Below are positions 11,051-18,204 of a DNA stretch of 35,002 bases, one piece after another. A model generated the notes under the pieces. It saw only the letters and a program-made list of their open reading frames with translations, was not told the origin of the DNA and made no database searches. Numbering within the stretch: the stretch's first letter is position 1; each line of letters begins with the position of its first letter. The translations under genes were made by a program, and so were the position numbers. Source of the DNA: Thermoplasmata archaeon (GTDB lineage: Archaea; Thermoplasmatota; Thermoplasmata; Lutacidiplasmatales; UBA184); NCBI GenBank assembly GCA_022749995.1, contig JAKIWO010000010.1, positions 1 to 35,002 of the forward strand. The letters run 5' to 3'.

Positions 11051-12031
11051 TCACCGGGGGATCGCGTAGCGCATCTGCTCGGAGCCGTACGCGGGCTGGA
11101 ACCCTTCGGACAGGAGCGTGGTCCGGGCGTCGAGGAGGTCCTCGGGCAGCTCGCAGATGACCCGCTTGGCCCCTTGACGACCCAGCGTGTTCGCGGCGTG
11201 ACGGACCGCGTCCCGGCGCTCCGATTCCCCGAGTTCCTCCCCGAAGACCGGTGCGCTGAGGTGGCCGACGGGAGATAGTTGGCCGAAGGTGGTACGGAAG
11301 AATCCCGCCGGCGCTGCGTCGCGCTCGATCACCCAGCCCGCCGAGCCGGAGCCTTCGAACGCGGCCCATCCCATCGGTAGTGCGAACGTGGAGCGGCCGA
11401 CCGGGATCGCCTCCTGGACCTTGGCCGGCGTGCATCGCTCGCCGAGCCGGATGAGCGCCGGCAGATCGTCCCGGCGCCACGGCCGGATGCGGGTGGAGCC
11501 AACCGATGAGCCCTCCGTCCGTTCCGCTCCGACGTAGGTCTGCAGGTCCCGGATCGGTTCGTACCCGAGCTTGCGATAGAGCCGCCGGGCGCCCGAGTTG
11601 CGCACCAACACTTCGAGGACGGCGTACCGTCGTCGGAAGCGGCGCAGGTCGGCATGCGCCCGGGCGAGGATGGCGCTGGCGACCCCTCGTCCCCGGTACG
11701 CCGGGTCGGTCACCACGCTCGCGATGAATCCGGATCGTTCGCCGAATCCCAGGAAGGCCATGCCGGCCGGCTGGCCGTTCCACTCGGCGAAGTACAGGCT
11801 GAATATCGGCCGGCCGAACCAGCGGAGCAACCCGAGAAGGAACCGGACCTCGGGGCGATAGGCCCGTCCGATCAACCGCTCCATCGACTCGGCCCGATAG
11901 CCGACCGTCTCCCGCTCCTCGGGAAACTCCTCCATCAGCCAGCGGCTGTAGCTCGGCGAGTCCCGGCGTCGAAAGGCTCGGACCTGGAGCTCCGGTACGG
12001 CCACGGTCGCGCTCAGGACCGCTCCCCCCAT
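11051..12031 (-). CDS. Tandem GNAT-family N-acetyltransferase
   Basis: The 326-residue product has two GNAT-like halves. The first (about 15-180) is complete: FSLYFAEWNGQPAGMAFLGF, FIASVVTDPAYRGRGVASAI (the Q/R-x-x-G-x-G/A acetyl-CoA loop appears as RGRGVA) and the closing NSGARRLYRKLGYEPI. The second half, starting near IRPWRRDDLPALIRLGERCT, keeps the fold pattern but lacks a clear acetyl-CoA loop, as in MshD-type double GNATs where one half is inactive. The ATG at 12031 is preferred to the further upstream start at 12130, which would overlap mutS and the shared promoter. The substrate is unknown. It is convergent with the tRNA genes, ending 11 nt after tRNA-Ser, and divergent from mutS. Confidence 0.82.
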   Translation of the reverse strand: MGGAVLSATVAVPELQVRAFRRRDSPSYSRWLMEEFPEERETVGYRAESMERLIGRAYRPEVRFLLGLLRWFGRPIFSLYFAEWNGQPAGMAFLGFGERSGFIASVVTDPAYRGRGVASAILARAHADLRRFRRRYAVLEVLVRNSGARRLYRKLGYEPIRDLQTYVGAERTEGSSVGSTRIRPWRRDDLPALIRLGERCTPAKVQEAIPVGRSTFALPMGWAAFEGSGSAGWVIERDAAPAGFFRTTFGQLSPVGHLSAPVFGEELGESERRDAVRHAANTLGRQGAKRVICELPEDLLDARTTLLSEGFQPAYGSEQMRYAIPR

Positions 12032-12067
12032 TCGGCTTGCGGCCGCCGTTTCGGTGCGTCTGTCGGA

Positions 12068-12079
12068 CCGCTTAAGCGG
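12068..12079. promoter_or_regulatory. Palindromic shared TATA element between GNAT gene and mutS
   Basis: CCGCTTAAGCGG is a perfect 12-bp palindrome in the centre of the divergent gap. Its edges lie 36 nt from the ATG of the GNAT gene (12031) and 37 nt from that of mutS (12117). The TTAA core could serve as a TATA box in both directions, or the palindrome could bind a dimeric regulator. No other AT-rich block is present in the gap. Confidence 0.5.
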
Positions 12080-12116
12080 GCGGAGCGCTCGGAAGGCCGT
12101 GCCCGGGCCGAGCGCG

Positions 12117-14726
12117 ATGAGCTCGCTCATGGAGCAGTACGCGGCGGCGAAGGCACGGTATCCGGGCCACCTGGTGCTGATCCGGGTCGGGGACTTCTTC
12201 GAAGGGTTCGGCGAGGAGGCCCAGCTCCTATCGCGGGAGCTCGACCTCGTGTTGACGGCGCGGGCGCCGGACGGGAGCGGCGAGCGGATGCCGATGGCCG
12301 GCGTCCCGGGCCACTCGATCGACAGCTACCTCGCCCGACTGGTTCGCAAGGGGTACAAGGTCGCGCTCTGCGACCAGGTCGAGGACGCGCGGCTCGCGAA
12401 GGGGCTCATTCGGCGGGAGGTGACGCGGGTCGTCACGCCGGGCACGGCGATCGAGGATCGGTTGCTCCCCGGACCCGAGCACAACTTCCTGGCGGCCGTG
12501 GCGACCCCGCCAGGGGGCCCGGCCGCCTTCGCCGCCGTGGACGTGACCACGGGCGAGCTGTTCACGGGCGCCGCCGAAGGTCCGGGACCCCTCGGGCTCG
12601 TGCTCGCTTTGGCCCCGTTCGGCCCTCGGGAACTGCTGCTCCCGGCGACCGCGACCGGGATCCCTACGGAGTCCGCCCGGTTGTTCAAGTCAGAGTTCCC
12701 CGCCGTCCGCCTCGAATCGGCTCCGGAGGCGATCGAGCCGGAGGCGCTGTCCGCACCGCTGCGCGCGAGCTTGGCCGAACTCCCAGAGGCCGAACGGGAG
12801 GCGGCGGGAGCCTGCCTCGCCTACGTCCGCGCGACCCAGCCGCGCCTGCTCCCGTTCATCGAGCGGGCCCCCCGCCCGCCCGCGAGCCGACGGTTGCGTT
12901 TGGACGCGAAGACGCTCCGGCATCTGGAGATCACGCGGTCGATGAGCGCCGAGGAGGGCGCCGCGCCGACCCTACTCTCCACCTGGGACGAGACGCGCAC
13001 CGCGCCGGGACGACGCCTCTTCGGCTTCTGGCTCCGCAACCCCCTCGCCGACGTCCAAGCGATAGGGGCGCGCCAGGACGCCGTCGACGCGCTGCGCGCG
13101 CTCGGCCCTGGCCTCGCCGCGCTTCGCCAATCGCTCGGGGCCGTCGCGGATCTTTCCCGTATTGGAAGCCGGGTGGCGGGCCGGCGATTGCGCCCGGTCG
13201 AGCTCGCCGCCCTCCGCAGCAGCCTATCGGCCGTAGCTCAGCTAGCGCAGGCGCTCGACCGAGAGCCGGTCGCCGAACCAGCCCGTCAACTCGGCCGGCG
13301 CCTGGACGCGCTGCCGGAACTCGCCGAGCGGCTGCGCGTCGCGATCCCAGAAGCTCCACCCGCGGAAGCCGGTGCCCGGGGATTGTTCCGGGACGGCGTA
13401 TTCCCCGAACTCGACGCGGTCACGGCCCAGGAGGCTGCGGCCCTCGCCGAATTGCAGCAGCTCGAGCGATCAGAGCAAGATCGAACCGGCATCCGCTCGC
13501 TCCGCGTGCGCTACAACCAGGTCTTCGGTTTCTACCTCGAGGTGACCCGGCCGCACCTGCCGCGGGTACCTCCCGAGTACCGCCGCAAGCAGACCGTCTC
13601 GGGCGCGGAGCGGTTCACCACCGACGAGCTCGCTGGGATCGAGACCCGAGTGCTCTCGGCGCGCGAGCGGGCCGGCGAGCTCGAGGCCGGTCTGTGGGAG
13701 CGATTCTGCAGGGAGCTCGACGGGTGGGTGCCCCGACTGTACCGACTGGCGAGGGCCGTGGGCGAGCTGGACGTGCTCGCGAGCTTCGCCTGGACGGCAC
13801 AGAGCCGGGGCCTCGTGCGACCCGTCGTCGACGACGGCGGCGAGCTCCTCGTGCGCGAGGGCCGGCACCCAGTACTCGACCGGTTGCTGGGAGAGCGGTT
13901 CGTTCCCAACGACACCGAGCTCGACCTCGCTCAAGCTAGGCTGCTCGTGCTCACGGGCCCGAACATGAGCGGCAAGTCCACCTACATGCGGCAGGTGGGG
14001 CTGCTCGTTCTGCTCGCCCAGGTGGGGGCCTTCCTGCCGGCGCGCCACGCGCGGATCGGCGTGGTGAGCTCGTTGCACACGCGGATGGGGTTCACCGACG
14101 ACATCGGGCGGGGCAAGTCGAGCTTCTTCGTCGAGATGAGCGAAGTCGCGGAGATCCTGCGCGGCGCCGACGAGCGCAGCCTGGTGCTGCTCGACGAAGT
14201 GGGGCGGGGCACGAGCACGTTCGACGGGCTCGCCTTGGCTTGGGCGACGCTTCGCCACCTGCACGACCGGATCCGTTGTCGGACCATCGTCGCCACGCAC
14301 TACCACCAGCTCACCGAGCTCGTCGAGAGCCTTCCCGGTGCCCGCAACGCGCATCTCGGTGTCAAGGAGGAGCACGGCGAGGTGGTGCTGTTGCACCGAC
14401 TCGTGCCGGGCAGTACCGACCGTAGCCTCGGCATCCACGTAGCGCGCCTGGCGGGACTCCCTTCCGACGCGCTCGCCGAGGCGGAGCGGATGCTGCGCCG
14501 ACTGGAGGCGGCCGAGCTTCCGGTCGGCGGGGGGAGTTCAGCCCGACGCGGACCGCGCTACACGCAAGCGGTGCTCCTGGCCGCGAGCGGAGCGACGGAT
14601 CCTTCCGAGCTCGAGCGAGCTCTCGCCGAGCTGGATCCGGACCGTCTGACGCCGCTCGAGGCACTCGCCTGGATCCACGAGTGGAAGCGTCGCAGGGCCG
14701 GCCCCGTCGCTGGAGAGCAGCCGTGA
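12117..14726 (+). CDS. mutS: DNA mismatch repair protein MutS (MutS1)
   Basis: Full-length MutS1 of 869 residues, which recognises mismatches and signals through ATP. The ATG at 12117 is chosen because the earlier start (12054) lies upstream of the TTAA promoter element. Domain I keeps the mismatch-probing Phe-x-Glu motif, RVGDFFEGFGEEA with F27 and E29. The connector and lever regions follow (LRLDAKTLRHLEITRSM), then the clamp. The ATPase domain has Walker A TGPNMSGKST with GPNMSGKS at 614-621, the MutS signature FTDDIGRGKSSFFVEMSEVA, Walker B SLVLLDEVGRGTSTFDG and ATHYHQLTEL. Mut1-type features distinguish it from the MutS2-like proteins more common in archaea. Most archaea lack MutS/MutL and use NucS/EndoMS, so bacterial origin by transfer is likely. 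It is the first gene of a tightly coupled three-gene unit. Confidence 0.96.
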   Translation: MSSLMEQYAAAKARYPGHLVLIRVGDFFEGFGEEAQLLSRELDLVLTARAPDGSGERMPMAGVPGHSIDSYLARLVRKGYKVALCDQVEDARLAKGLIRREVTRVVTPGTAIEDRLLPGPEHNFLAAVATPPGGPAAFAAVDVTTGELFTGAAEGPGPLGLVLALAPFGPRELLLPATATGIPTESARLFKSEFPAVRLESAPEAIEPEALSAPLRASLAELPEAEREAAGACLAYVRATQPRLLPFIERAPRPPASRRLRLDAKTLRHLEITRSMSAEEGAAPTLLSTWDETRTAPGRRLFGFWLRNPLADVQAIGARQDAVDALRALGPGLAALRQSLGAVADLSRIGSRVAGRRLRPVELAALRSSLSAVAQLAQALDREPVAEPARQLGRRLDALPELAERLRVAIPEAPPAEAGARGLFRDGVFPELDAVTAQEAAALAELQQLERSEQDRTGIRSLRVRYNQVFGFYLEVTRPHLPRVPPEYRRKQTVSGAERFTTDELAGIETRVLSARERAGELEAGLWERFCRELDGWVPRLYRLARAVGELDVLASFAWTAQSRGLVRPVVDDGGELLVREGRHPVLDRLLGERFVPNDTELDLAQARLLVLTGPNMSGKSTYMRQVGLLVLLAQVGAFLPARHARIGVVSSLHTRMGFTDDIGRGKSSFFVEMSEVAEILRGADERSLVLLDEVGRGTSTFDGLALAWATLRHLHDRIRCRTIVATHYHQLTELVESLPGARNAHLGVKEEHGEVVLLHRLVPGSTDRSLGIHVARLAGLPSDALAEAERMLRRLEAAELPVGGGSSARRGPRYTQAVLLAASGATDPSELERALAELDPDRLTPLEALAWIHEWKRRRAGPVAGEQP

Positions 14727-16477
14727 GCGGCCCGCGGCGGCCGATCCATCGACTCGACCCCGAGACCATCGAACGGATCGCCGCCGGCGAAGTGGTCGAG
14801 CGACCGGCCTCGGTGGTCAAGGAGCTGTTCGAGAACGCCCTCGACGCCGGGGCGACGTCGGTCTCGGTGCGACTCGCCGACGGCGGCCTGTCGCTCATCG
14901 AGGTGGCGGACAACGGCGGCGGCATCCCCGCGGCAGAGCTCCCGCTGGCCCTCGAGCGGCACGCCACGAACAAGCTCTCCGGTCCGGAGGGGCTCTCCGC
15001 CATTGCCACGTTGGGATTCCGCGGCGAGGCACTCGCCGCGATCGCCTCGGTCTCGAGGCTGCGTCTGCTCTCCCGCTACGGCGATGAGTCGGAGGCGCAC
15101 GGCCTCGATGCCTCGGCCGGCCAGCTCGGTCCACCCTTCACGGCGAGCCGTGCCCCCGGCACCACGGTCGGGTGCGAGTCGCTGTTCTTCAACACACCGG
15201 CCCGGCGCAAGTTCTTGCGGTCGGCGCCCCGGGAGCGGCTCGAAGTGCTGGATACGCTGCAGCGGGCGTACCTGGCGTCTTCGGCGGTGGCCGTCGACCT
15301 GAGCGCCGACGGGGTCGAGCTGCTCCGACTGCCGGCGAGCCGCGACTTGGCCGAGGCGTGCGCGCACGTGCTCGGCCCCGAGTTCGACGCGGTCAAGTTC
15401 GAGGTGCGGGCGGAGGATGGGGCCCGCGGTTCCCTCGAGGGTTGGTTTGCAGGACCGGCGGTTTCGCGGAGCAGCGGCCGAGGGGTCTACCTCTGCGTCA
15501 ACGGCCGGCCGGTGAGTTCGCGTCCACTCGCCCAGGCCATCCGGGCCGCCTTCGGCGACCGACTTCCGAGGACGCGCCAGCCGGTCGGCGTGCTCCACCT
15601 GCACCTCGACCCGACCCGCGTGGACGTCAACGTTCACCCGAGCAAGCGGGAAGTCCGGTTCGAGCGAGAGCCCGAACTGGCCGAGTGGATCCGCCGGGCC
15701 GTCCGTAGCGGGCTCGTGGGCGGGCCGGAGCCGGCACACGACACGGTGGAGCCGGAGCGGTTCGCGCCGGTCCCGCGAACTCTGGGTTCGTTCACCCCGT
15801 CCTCCACGACCGCCCGCCACCGCTCGTCGGCCCCTGCTGCGCGACAAGCCCGGCTCGACTCCCCCCGAGCGAACCGGTCCGTCGCCGCCGAGGGCACCCG
15901 GCCCGCCCTCACGCTGCTCGGCTCCGTGGACCGACTCTATTGGGTGGCGGAGAGCGGAGCGGATCTGCTCCTGTTGGACCAGCACGCCGCGAGCGAGCGG
16001 GTGTGGTACGAGGCGCTCCTCGCGCACTCCCGCCTCGGGCAGCAGCGGCTCGTGCAGCCGGTCCGCGTTCGGCTCGCGCCGAGGGAGGCCGAGGTGGCGC
16101 GAGAACGGCTCGAGTACCTCCGCTCGGTCGGATTCGAGGTCGAACCGATGGGCGGGGCGGAGTGGTGGCTGCGCGGGCTACCCTCCTTCCGAGGACGGAC
16201 CGCACCGGCCGAGGAGTTTCCGCGTCTCCTGGCGGAGCTGGCCGACGGTGGCCGGCCGTCGGTGCCCGATGGCCTCGTCGAGCGGACCGCCGCCAGCGTG
16301 GCCTGCCACGCCGCCGTCCGGGCGGGGGACCGCATCGACGCGGAGGAGATGGGCCGGATCCTCGCCGGGCTGTACGCCCTGCCGAGCGCCCCGACCAGTT
16401 GCCCCCACGGCCGGCCGATCGCCGTGCGACTTCCCCGCGGTCGGCTCGACCGGTGGTTCGGCCGGAGTAGCGTGTGA
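14723..16477 (+). CDS. mutL: DNA mismatch repair endonuclease MutL
   Basis: The 584-residue MutL starts with GTG at 14723, overlapping the mutS stop (GTGA). The GHKL ATPase half shows ERIAAGEVVERPASVVKELF, ENALDAGA with N38, VADNGGGIP, ATLGFRGEAL and VNVHPSKREVRF. A Pro/Ser/Arg-rich linker covers roughly 335-395. The C-terminal domain begins LTLLGSVDRLYWVAESG and holds the metal-dependent nicking motif DQHAASERVWYE at 419-430, matching DQHA-x2-E-x4-E, plus the supporting ACHAAV (C528) and CPHGRP (C560). This MutL therefore should nick DNA itself, as in bacteria without MutH. The length is normal. The next gene overlaps its stop by 4 nt. Confidence 0.96.
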   Translation: MSGPRRPIHRLDPETIERIAAGEVVERPASVVKELFENALDAGATSVSVRLADGGLSLIEVADNGGGIPAAELPLALERHATNKLSGPEGLSAIATLGFRGEALAAIASVSRLRLLSRYGDESEAHGLDASAGQLGPPFTASRAPGTTVGCESLFFNTPARRKFLRSAPRERLEVLDTLQRAYLASSAVAVDLSADGVELLRLPASRDLAEACAHVLGPEFDAVKFEVRAEDGARGSLEGWFAGPAVSRSSGRGVYLCVNGRPVSSRPLAQAIRAAFGDRLPRTRQPVGVLHLHLDPTRVDVNVHPSKREVRFEREPELAEWIRRAVRSGLVGGPEPAHDTVEPERFAPVPRTLGSFTPSSTTARHRSSAPAARQARLDSPRANRSVAAEGTRPALTLLGSVDRLYWVAESGADLLLLDQHAASERVWYEALLAHSRLGQQRLVQPVRVRLAPREAEVARERLEYLRSVGFEVEPMGGAEWWLRGLPSFRGRTAPAEEFPRLLAELADGGRPSVPDGLVERTAASVACHAAVRAGDRIDAEEMGRILAGLYALPSAPTSCPHGRPIAVRLPRGRLDRWFGRSSV

Positions 16478-17019
16478 AGGCTCCCCGCCACCACCTGGAA
16501 GCGGACATGGCCGCTCCCGTCGTCCGTTTTCTGGAGCGGCGGGGATACCGGACCTACCGCGATCCGGACGGGAAGGATTACCTCGACCTCGTGGCGCGGC
16601 GCGGCGAGGAGCTTGGCCTTGTGGAACTCAAGCTCAGCGCGGCACGCACGGTACTGGGCCAGGCGCTGCGCCGTCGGGGCTGGGGCGACTGGGTGGCGGT
16701 CGCACTCGATGGACGTAGGGCCGCCGAGCGGGCCCTCGCGGCCTCTCCCTCCGGGCACAGCGAGCGCGTCGGTGTGCTGGCCGTGCTCGGCGAGGAGGTC
16801 GAGGAGCTACGGCCGGCCGCACCCGTTCACGGAGCAGGATGCTTCCACCCGTTCCCGGAGCTGCGCGCGCGGTTGGTGCTCCTGCTCGACGCCGTGGACT
16901 CCGGCGAGCTGCCGGCGGGCATCGGCTGGGGTGCGCTCTGGCGCTCCGACTCCGGCGGTCGGCACGCCGGTCGCGAATGGCGGATCGAAGAACTGGCGCC
17001 CCCGTCCGAGTCCGATTGA
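16474..17019 (+). CDS. Small PD-(D/E)XK nuclease-like protein in the mutSL operon
   Basis: The 181-residue product starts with GTG at 16474 and overlaps the mutL stop as GTGA, so it is coupled to MutL synthesis. The first 80 residues fit a restriction-endonuclease-like fold: helix HHLEADMAAPVVRFLERRGY with E9, the first acidic residue in DYLDLVARRG (D38), the core strand LGLVELKLS with E51 and K53, and a following helix with Q63 (VLGQALRRRGW) as in resolvase and Vsr-like nucleases. The rest (about 100-181) is variable, with one helical segment RARLVLLLDAVDSGELP, and is unrecognised. The catalytic D-x12-E-x-K triad is present. Known archaeal mismatch repair has no named third component like this, so a role with MutS/MutL is an inference from context. 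It could also be an unrelated repair or defence nuclease. Confidence 0.75.
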   Translation: MKAPRHHLEADMAAPVVRFLERRGYRTYRDPDGKDYLDLVARRGEELGLVELKLSAARTVLGQALRRRGWGDWVAVALDGRRAAERALAASPSGHSERVGVLAVLGEEVEELRPAAPVHGAGCFHPFPELRARLVLLLDAVDSGELPAGIGWGALWRSDSGGRHAGREWRIEELAPPSESD

Positions 17020-17022
17020 CGG

Positions 17023-18204
17023 TCAGGACGAGCGCGGCCGTCCGAGGATCGGCTCGAGCAGCTCCTCGAACTGCTGGGCCATCCGCGCGTAGCTGAACTG
17101 GTCGGCCCAGAGTCGGCCTGCCTCCCCTTGCGCTCGACGCATCCCGGAGTCGGCGAGCAGCTCGGCGAGTTCGCTCGCGTACTCGCCCGGGTCGTCGGAG
17201 TGGACCACCCGCACCTGTCGGGGGCTCTCCGCCCCCTCCAGGGGGACCTGCGCGCTCACGATCGTCGCGACGCCGTAGCGCATCGCCTCCCGCGGAGCCA
17301 GTCCGAACCCTTCGTAGCGCGCCGGGAACAGGAATACGTCGGCGGCGCGGTAGGCGCGGGCCTTCGTCTCCTCGTCGACGAGTCCCAGGGAGAGGACGCC
17401 GGGCTCGGAGGGGACGCTCGAGCCGACGATGATGAGCCGTACCCCGGCGAACAGCGGGCGCATCCGGCGGAACGCCTCGAGCGTCGCCGGCAGACCCTGT
17501 CGCTCGGGCGTCCGCCCGACGAACAGGACGGCCGGGACGTCCGCCGGGAGCCGGAGCGCCGCCCGCGCCTCCTCCCGCGTGCCCACCTCGAGCGGGTCGG
17601 GAACGCCGTGCGGCTGCAGGTGGACGCGGCGGGCCGGTATGCCGTAGTACTGCTCGAGGAGTCGCCGATTCATCTCCGAACCGGCGAGGAGCAGCTGCGC
17701 CCGACGGAGCGCATCGCCTTCGAGCCGGCGCAGCACCCGCCGGTCGAGCCAATTCCCGACCGACTGGCGCACTCCCCGCTTGGGCTCGAGCGGTCGGAGC
17801 GTGTCGAAGGTATGCAGCGCGACATCGTGCACGATCTGCACCCGGATGGGCCGGTTCGGTCGGCTCGACCGGGGAGGGGTGAGCGCCCCGGCCTTCTCGT
17901 CGTTGCCCACGACGACGTCCGCCGCCGGGTCGAGACAACCCGAGGCCATGCGGCCGGCCTCGATGTCCCGGCCGAACGGGCGGCGCGAGACCCGGTGGAG
18001 CGGCACCGGTACGCCCGGCACTCCGCGGTAGGGCGGCACCGGGGCAGGCTGCTCCGTCGGGAAGAGGACGCGAGGGCGATGTCCGCGGGCGGCCAGCTCG
18101 GCCGCGAGCTCCCACACGGCCCGGCTGAGTCCCGAGGAGGTCTCGGTCGATGGTGCGCTCGCGAGGAATTCGATCCGCCAGCCGGTAGAGCTCCCGGCGG
18201 CCAC
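17023..18204 (-). CDS. Glycosyltransferase family 4 (GT-B)
   Basis: The 393-residue protein starts with GTG at 18204 and has the two Rossmann domains of GT-B enzymes. The N-terminal acceptor domain shows ETSSGLSRAVWELAAELAAR (glycine-rich loop after the first strand) and VQIVHDVALHTFDTLRP. The C-terminal donor domain shows AVLFVGRTPERQGLPATLEA, VRLIIVGSSVP, YRAADVFLFPARYEGFGLAP and REAMRYGVATIVS, the last including the conserved E-x7-E-like region typical of GT4. These enzymes add sugars such as mannose or glucose to lipid-linked glycans at the cytoplasmic membrane face. It lies 15 nt downstream of the phosphodiesterase-like gene in the same direction, so they form a pair. Its end meets the nuclease gene 3 nt away, convergently. 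Donor and acceptor are unknown. Confidence 0.9.
   Translation of the reverse strand: MAAGSSTGWRIEFLASAPSTETSSGLSRAVWELAAELAARGHRPRVLFPTEQPAPVPPYRGVPGVPVPLHRVSRRPFGRDIEAGRMASGCLDPAADVVVGNDEKAGALTPPRSSRPNRPIRVQIVHDVALHTFDTLRPLEPKRGVRQSVGNWLDRRVLRRLEGDALRRAQLLLAGSEMNRRLLEQYYGIPARRVHLQPHGVPDPLEVGTREEARAALRLPADVPAVLFVGRTPERQGLPATLEAFRRMRPLFAGVRLIIVGSSVPSEPGVLSLGLVDEETKARAYRAADVFLFPARYEGFGLAPREAMRYGVATIVSAQVPLEGAESPRQVRVVHSDDPGEYASELAELLADSGMRRAQGEAGRLWADQFSYARMAQQFEELLEPILGRPRSS

Follow-up and report, generated by a model that had tools for sequence, protein, structure and literature searches.

Downstream of mutS and mutL, a family of soil archaea carries a third gene. Its product, a small predicted nuclease, likely serves as an additional component of the machinery for correcting DNA-copying errors. 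The pathway is known, and the nuclease is its new part. We consider it probable that the nuclease works in MutS-MutL repair, and our best explanation, to which we lean, is a MutS-MutL operon with a dedicated third protein that processes the nicked strand. The computed support for this consists of gene order and overlaps, the predicted fold, an intact active site, a strict link to mutL and purifying selection.

The mutS-mutL-nuclease operon

The window, that is, the whole stretch of 35,002 nucleotides analysed here, comes from a genome assembly of 1.6 Mb in 95 contigs. A preliminary description of it had reported three genes joined by GTGA overlaps, and all three open reading frames were found in place (Table 1), with GTGA shared by the mutS stop and the mutL start and again by the mutL stop and the nuclease start. 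The GTG at 14723 is the most likely start of mutL; the longest open reading frame would begin at 14681. MutS domains I, III, IV and V of the window protein exceeded the Pfam cut-offs, and its mismatch-contact motif (GDFFE) and Walker motif (GPNMSGKST) were present. The MutL protein contains HATPase, DNA_mis_repair and MutL_C domains. The window therefore has the MutS1 gene adjoining an endonuclease-type MutL gene that defines a MutS-MutL operon, and the earlier label of a third mismatch repair was overstated: this is MutS-MutL repair plus an extra part. On the minus strand (11051-12130) lies a GNAT gene divergent from mutS. Of the relatives fetched, only L042 and L046 showed such a gene upstream of mutS, and it is unrelated to the GNAT gene of genera g2 and g3 described below.

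Table 1. Coordinates of the operon genes, nuclease features and downstream neighbour in the window
Feature	Position	Strand	Remarks
mutS, MutS1 type	12117..14726	+	ATG start at 12117; GDFFE, GPNMSGKST motifs
mutL with C-terminal endonuclease motifs DQHAASERVWYE, ACHAAVR, CPHGRP	14723..16477	+	GTG start
MutL-linked predicted PD-(D/E)XK nuclease, 181 aa	16474..17019	+	GTG start
Nuclease active-site stretch, residues 9-63 (E9, D38, E51-x-K53, Q63)	16498..16662	+	invariant, including distant relatives
WRIEEL, conserved C-terminal peptide, residues 169-174 of the nuclease	16978..16995	+	after low-confidence linker
Glycosyltransferase gene, convergent; synteny marker abutting the nuclease	17023..18204	-	

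The nuclease gene is linked to mutL throughout the family

Among the 103 genomes of the window's family, the nuclease gene was found in 82 and mutL in 93. Homologues lying mostly away from mutL would have spoken against the preliminary description, and the search for them showed that close homologues adjoin mutL wherever the contig permits: in 80 of the 82 carriers the nuclease gene lies downstream of mutL on the same contig and strand, and the remaining two copies begin at base 1 or 3 of their contigs and are cut by the contig ends. The alignments of the two genes are at most 40 bases apart in 75 genomes (direct junctions). In the other five, from genera g2 and g3, the two are separated by a single GNAT acetyltransferase gene, an insertion that the link survives. 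The intervening gene (310-317 aa; L047, L048, L053, L057 and L061) starts on the mutL stop with an NTGA overlap. Of 54 distinct direct junctions, 49 showed an NTGA overlap that is in frame with the nuclease (GTGA 33, ATGA 14, TTGA 2). When GTDB genome contigs were scanned, 59 loci emerged: 58 labelled Thermoplasmata archaeon or Candidatus Lutacidiplasma silvani, and a single one labelled 'bacterium'; the nuclease-bearing family is probably Lutacidiplasmatales. The nuclease-mutL link is thus real. What a gene neighbourhood shows is an association of the nuclease with MutL, not a biochemical partnership, and we infer that the nuclease binds MutL or MutS.

The MutL tree has nuclease carriers in each of the family's two deep clades and none in genera g4 and g6, a pattern of three changes if the outgroup is counted as lacking the gene. 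One gain and two losses most simply account for it, and the nuclease was probably present in the ancestor of the family. Both g4 and g6 retain mutS and mutL, so the nuclease is dispensable there. In g6, mutL and the convergent glycosyltransferase gene, the one adjoining the nuclease in the window, end only a few bases apart, which makes this a clean case of presence and absence. Ten of the 12 genomes with mutL and no nuclease belong to these two genera; in the other two (G077 and G089) mutL is at a contig end or only partial. In G016 and G019, both fairly complete genomes, mutS, mutL and nuclease are all missing. This is modest evidence, because neighbours drop out together in fragmentary assemblies, and incompleteness partly explains the joint absences in some MAGs. 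By eye, a small open reading frame reminiscent of OB-fold nucleic-acid-binding proteins overlaps the mutL stop in L054 (G013, genus g4, without nuclease), and in another Thermoplasmata family (L071, G038:C22) a DNA-methylase-like open reading frame (DPFCGSGTT) follows mutL by ~50 bases.

Distant relatives in further families of the class (E 6e-15 to 4e-5) came to light in a profile search of 400 of its genomes, and profile-profile comparison backed their kinship (probability 98.6). Presence here means a profile search result, as a simple gene caller missed several of these relatives in GC-rich loci. They keep the E, D, E-x-K and Q set and have Q-x3-Y, with Y67 against R67 in the mutL-linked set. 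The 20 loci fetched (19 from other families and one G061 paralog; 3-12 kb each) yielded neither mutS nor mutL, and the mutL link therefore belongs to the Lutacidiplasmatales branch and not to the wider family. Also away from mutL is a 239-aa protein (L183, G061:C2:61800-62006) that has a helix-turn-helix-like part and matches the nuclease profile in part (E 5.9e-8). The preliminary description had also suggested that the unit may have moved as a block. This found no support: the nuclease is limited to one family and its distances follow those of MutL (r = 0.81), while mutS and mutL are widespread in the class, occurring in most of its families without the nuclease.

Operons can contain unrelated genes, and a part in repair is not obvious for the GNAT and glycosyltransferase genes nearby. 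Operon structure or regulation alone could likewise keep the nuclease in place, its function lying outside mismatch repair, for example in defence, and the position of its distant relatives away from mutS and mutL fits such a view. We regard this as very improbable, since adjacency was unbroken in the 80 resolvable genomes and in both deep clades, and the mutL link persisted where other neighbours changed. A defence gene was also set aside as an identity, as PADLOC yielded no convincing match (one member, E 0.026).

A conserved active site in a predicted PD-(D/E)XK fold

Nine residues (E9, D32, D38, E51, K53, Q63, R67, R68 and W73) were invariant across 16 relatives with 40-71% identity to the window nuclease, and E9, D38, E51, K53 and Q63 were kept in every covering copy among 61 distinct sequences. 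D38, E51 and K53 form the D...(D/E)-x-K pattern of a PD-(D/E)XK active site; together with Q63, they are exactly the residues named in advance. The ratio dN/dS was ~0.08-0.19 in three pairs (rough values, with dS >1 in two of them), and the gene is under purifying selection. The invariant residues, a dN/dS well below 1 and the recurring NTGA overlap all indicate that the conserved reading frame is not a chance feature. Toward the C-terminus, 52 of the 61 copies match the strict pattern W-x-[LIV]-[DE]-E; five of the other nine have Y or L at the W position, and the remaining four are cut short or run into another frame. The window's version of this peptide, WRIEEL, is a candidate docking motif. 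A clamp- or PCNA-type motif was looked for in the nuclease and none was seen.

AlphaFold2 (62 sequences) gave a nuclease model with a mean pLDDT of 86.7 and most core blocks above 90. Its predicted core, alpha-beta-beta-beta-alpha-beta (H9-22, E26-29, E39-43, E46-53, H57-66, E73-79), is that of the PD-(D/E)XK superfamily, so the fold anticipated from the sequence is also the one modelled. From residues and model together, the protein is a predicted DNA cutter, with metal-dependent cleavage the activity that such a site would have.

The nuclease had no match above cut-off to any Pfam or NCBIfam family, and no curated family contains it. Foldseek matched the first model to 3dnx, Hjc and AF1548, with 3dnx as the best solved structure (E 6.6e-5, probability 1.00) and its segment falling in PF06319 (MmcB-like). 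The second model matched AF1548 and Hjc, and 3dnx was absent among the best 50 listed. PDB structure matches other than 3dnx were weak. In a viral structure library, the second model matched phage Gp1.5 and MmcB-like proteins, the latter with TM up to 0.57/0.69. PHROG 12193, of unknown function, was matched by 12 of the 16 members (best E 1.9e-6), and tblastn gave a weak match to SPO1-like phages; an IMG/VR scan found no viral relative. A Pfam match to VpsR (best E 0.00072) and a PDB match to a response regulator were put aside as chance, as the active-site pattern fits neither.

MutL keeps its own nicking site

The preliminary description had credited MutL with a nicking motif of its own, and this is kept: every full-length MutL examined, whether or not its genome has the nuclease, retained D-x-HA-x2-ER and the C-terminal motifs. 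In several family MutLs, L042, L046 and L063 among them, D, T, A or S takes the place of the last E of DQHA-x2-E-x4-E, and the change to D also occurs in a nuclease-free genus. DAHA replaces DQHA in one deep MutL clade. As the motif D and E-R are intact and only the last E varies, we rejected the idea that the nuclease replaces a dead MutL nuclease; with D-x-HA-x2-ER retained, the extra nuclease is not a substitute for the MutL nick.

The nuclease might nevertheless be an incision or strand-choice factor, making the initial or a second nick upon activation by MutL, as E. coli MutH does. MutH belongs to the same fold superfamily, and the strict mutL link, the compact single-domain protein and an active site with the layout seen in NucS, a mismatch endonuclease, would all suit this role. 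A strand-choice nick is made less likely by the nicking motif of MutL itself, which is kept in nuclease-bearing and nuclease-free genomes alike. Also, the operon contains no methylase gene, and genera g4 and g6 do without the nuclease. Overall we think an incision role unlikely, if worth keeping in mind.

NucS/EndoMS matches were found in 2 of the 103 family genomes; with NucS nearly absent, MutS-MutL is the known mismatch-repair route in the family. UvrD was not found in any of G000-G005, the six genomes that represent the window's genus, so helicase-driven excision of the E. coli type looks unavailable there. This argument is weak, because UvrD is present in some other genera of the family and occurs alongside the nuclease in some members.

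A proposed step after the nick

MutL covers the nick and the step left is excision, into which a MutL-coupled nuclease would fit. In the scheme that we propose, MutS would detect the mismatch and MutL, with its own endonuclease site kept, would nick the new strand. The nuclease, produced by coupled translation from an mRNA shared with mutS and mutL and perhaps tethered to the complex via its conserved C-terminal peptide, would then cut or degrade the nicked strand so that the mismatch could be removed. We incline to excision or strand processing after the nick as the step served by the nuclease. An accessory nuclease locked to MutL, the central claim of the preliminary description, is well supported; which of the roles listed there (excision, strand discrimination or loading) it fills is not settled.

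The folds nearest to the nuclease are those of DNA-repair and junction nucleases, which speaks for this scheme. Those of the MmcB-like family (3dnx and the phage proteins) and of Hjc would also suit a different function. MmcB protects Caulobacter against mitomycin C (PMC9578287). On this basis the nuclease could act on other lesions or junctions, such as crosslinks or recombination intermediates, and be recruited by or merely co-expressed with MutS-MutL. However, a lesion-specific enzyme would not need the mutL position in every genome, and the role of Holliday-junction resolvase, which we rejected as an identity, is covered by a separate Hjc gene in 86 of the 103 family genomes. We give this reading a rather small chance.

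In agreement with the claim that such a protein was undescribed for archaeal mismatch repair, no nuclease locked to archaeal mutL was described in the open-access papers searched, whose silence is not proof. The Lutacidiplasmatales genome paper lists mutLS, and the word 'nuclease' does not occur in its main text (PMC9287336). Some archaea are without a known mismatch-repair route (reviewed in PMC7690668). For archaeal MutS-MutL, the choice of the error strand and its removal after the MutL nick are largely assumed from eukaryotes. With a MutL-locked nuclease that spans a family to its full depth, the step that is missing acquires a concrete candidate open to testing, and a probable function can be given to a protein family so far uncharacterised.

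Comparison with known systems

The phage SPO1 Gp1.5 family (PHROG 12193) resembles the nuclease by a weak repeated profile match and by a structural match to a Gp1.5; to our knowledge the family has neither a known function nor a link to mutL. Archaeal Hjc shares the nuclease fold with weak structural matches, and its family PF01870 gave no match above cut-off (one of 16 members, E 0.18 only).

The likeness to the MmcB-like family (PF06319; 3dnx, SPO1766) lies in a small single-domain protein and in what may be the same fold, with 3dnx matching the first model only and phage members of the family the second. No sequence match to PF06319 was found in the 16 members (E up to 0.5) or in 150 genomes. 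MmcB is encoded by a bacterial SOS-regulated gene, whereas the nuclease here is archaeal and mutL-linked, and we know of no case in which MmcB is a neighbour of mutL.

With E. coli MutH, which is activated by MutL, the nuclease may share the role of a nuclease working with MutL. Searches gave no sequence or structure match between the two, and they differ in that the MutL here carries its own endonuclease motif.

NucS works independently of MutS-MutL. The nuclease had no match to NucS in Pfam or PDB sequence searches, and membership of NucS/EndoMS was rejected as it also lacks the N-terminal mismatch-binding domain plus NucS_C, being a single domain of 181 aa. The active site of NucS comprises E127, D160, E174, K176, Q187 and Y191, a motif common to RecB (PMC7343888). 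The first five correspond at near-equal spacing to E9, D38, E51, K53 and Q63 of the nuclease, and the position of Y191 is R67 in the mutL-linked protein. A bolder and more doubtful idea, which we offer tentatively, is that the MutL-docked nuclease is a third core MutS-MutL protein of this archaeal order, excising in place of a helicase plus exonuclease, and that MutS-MutL, not a recognition domain of its own, would bring its NucS-like site to mismatches.
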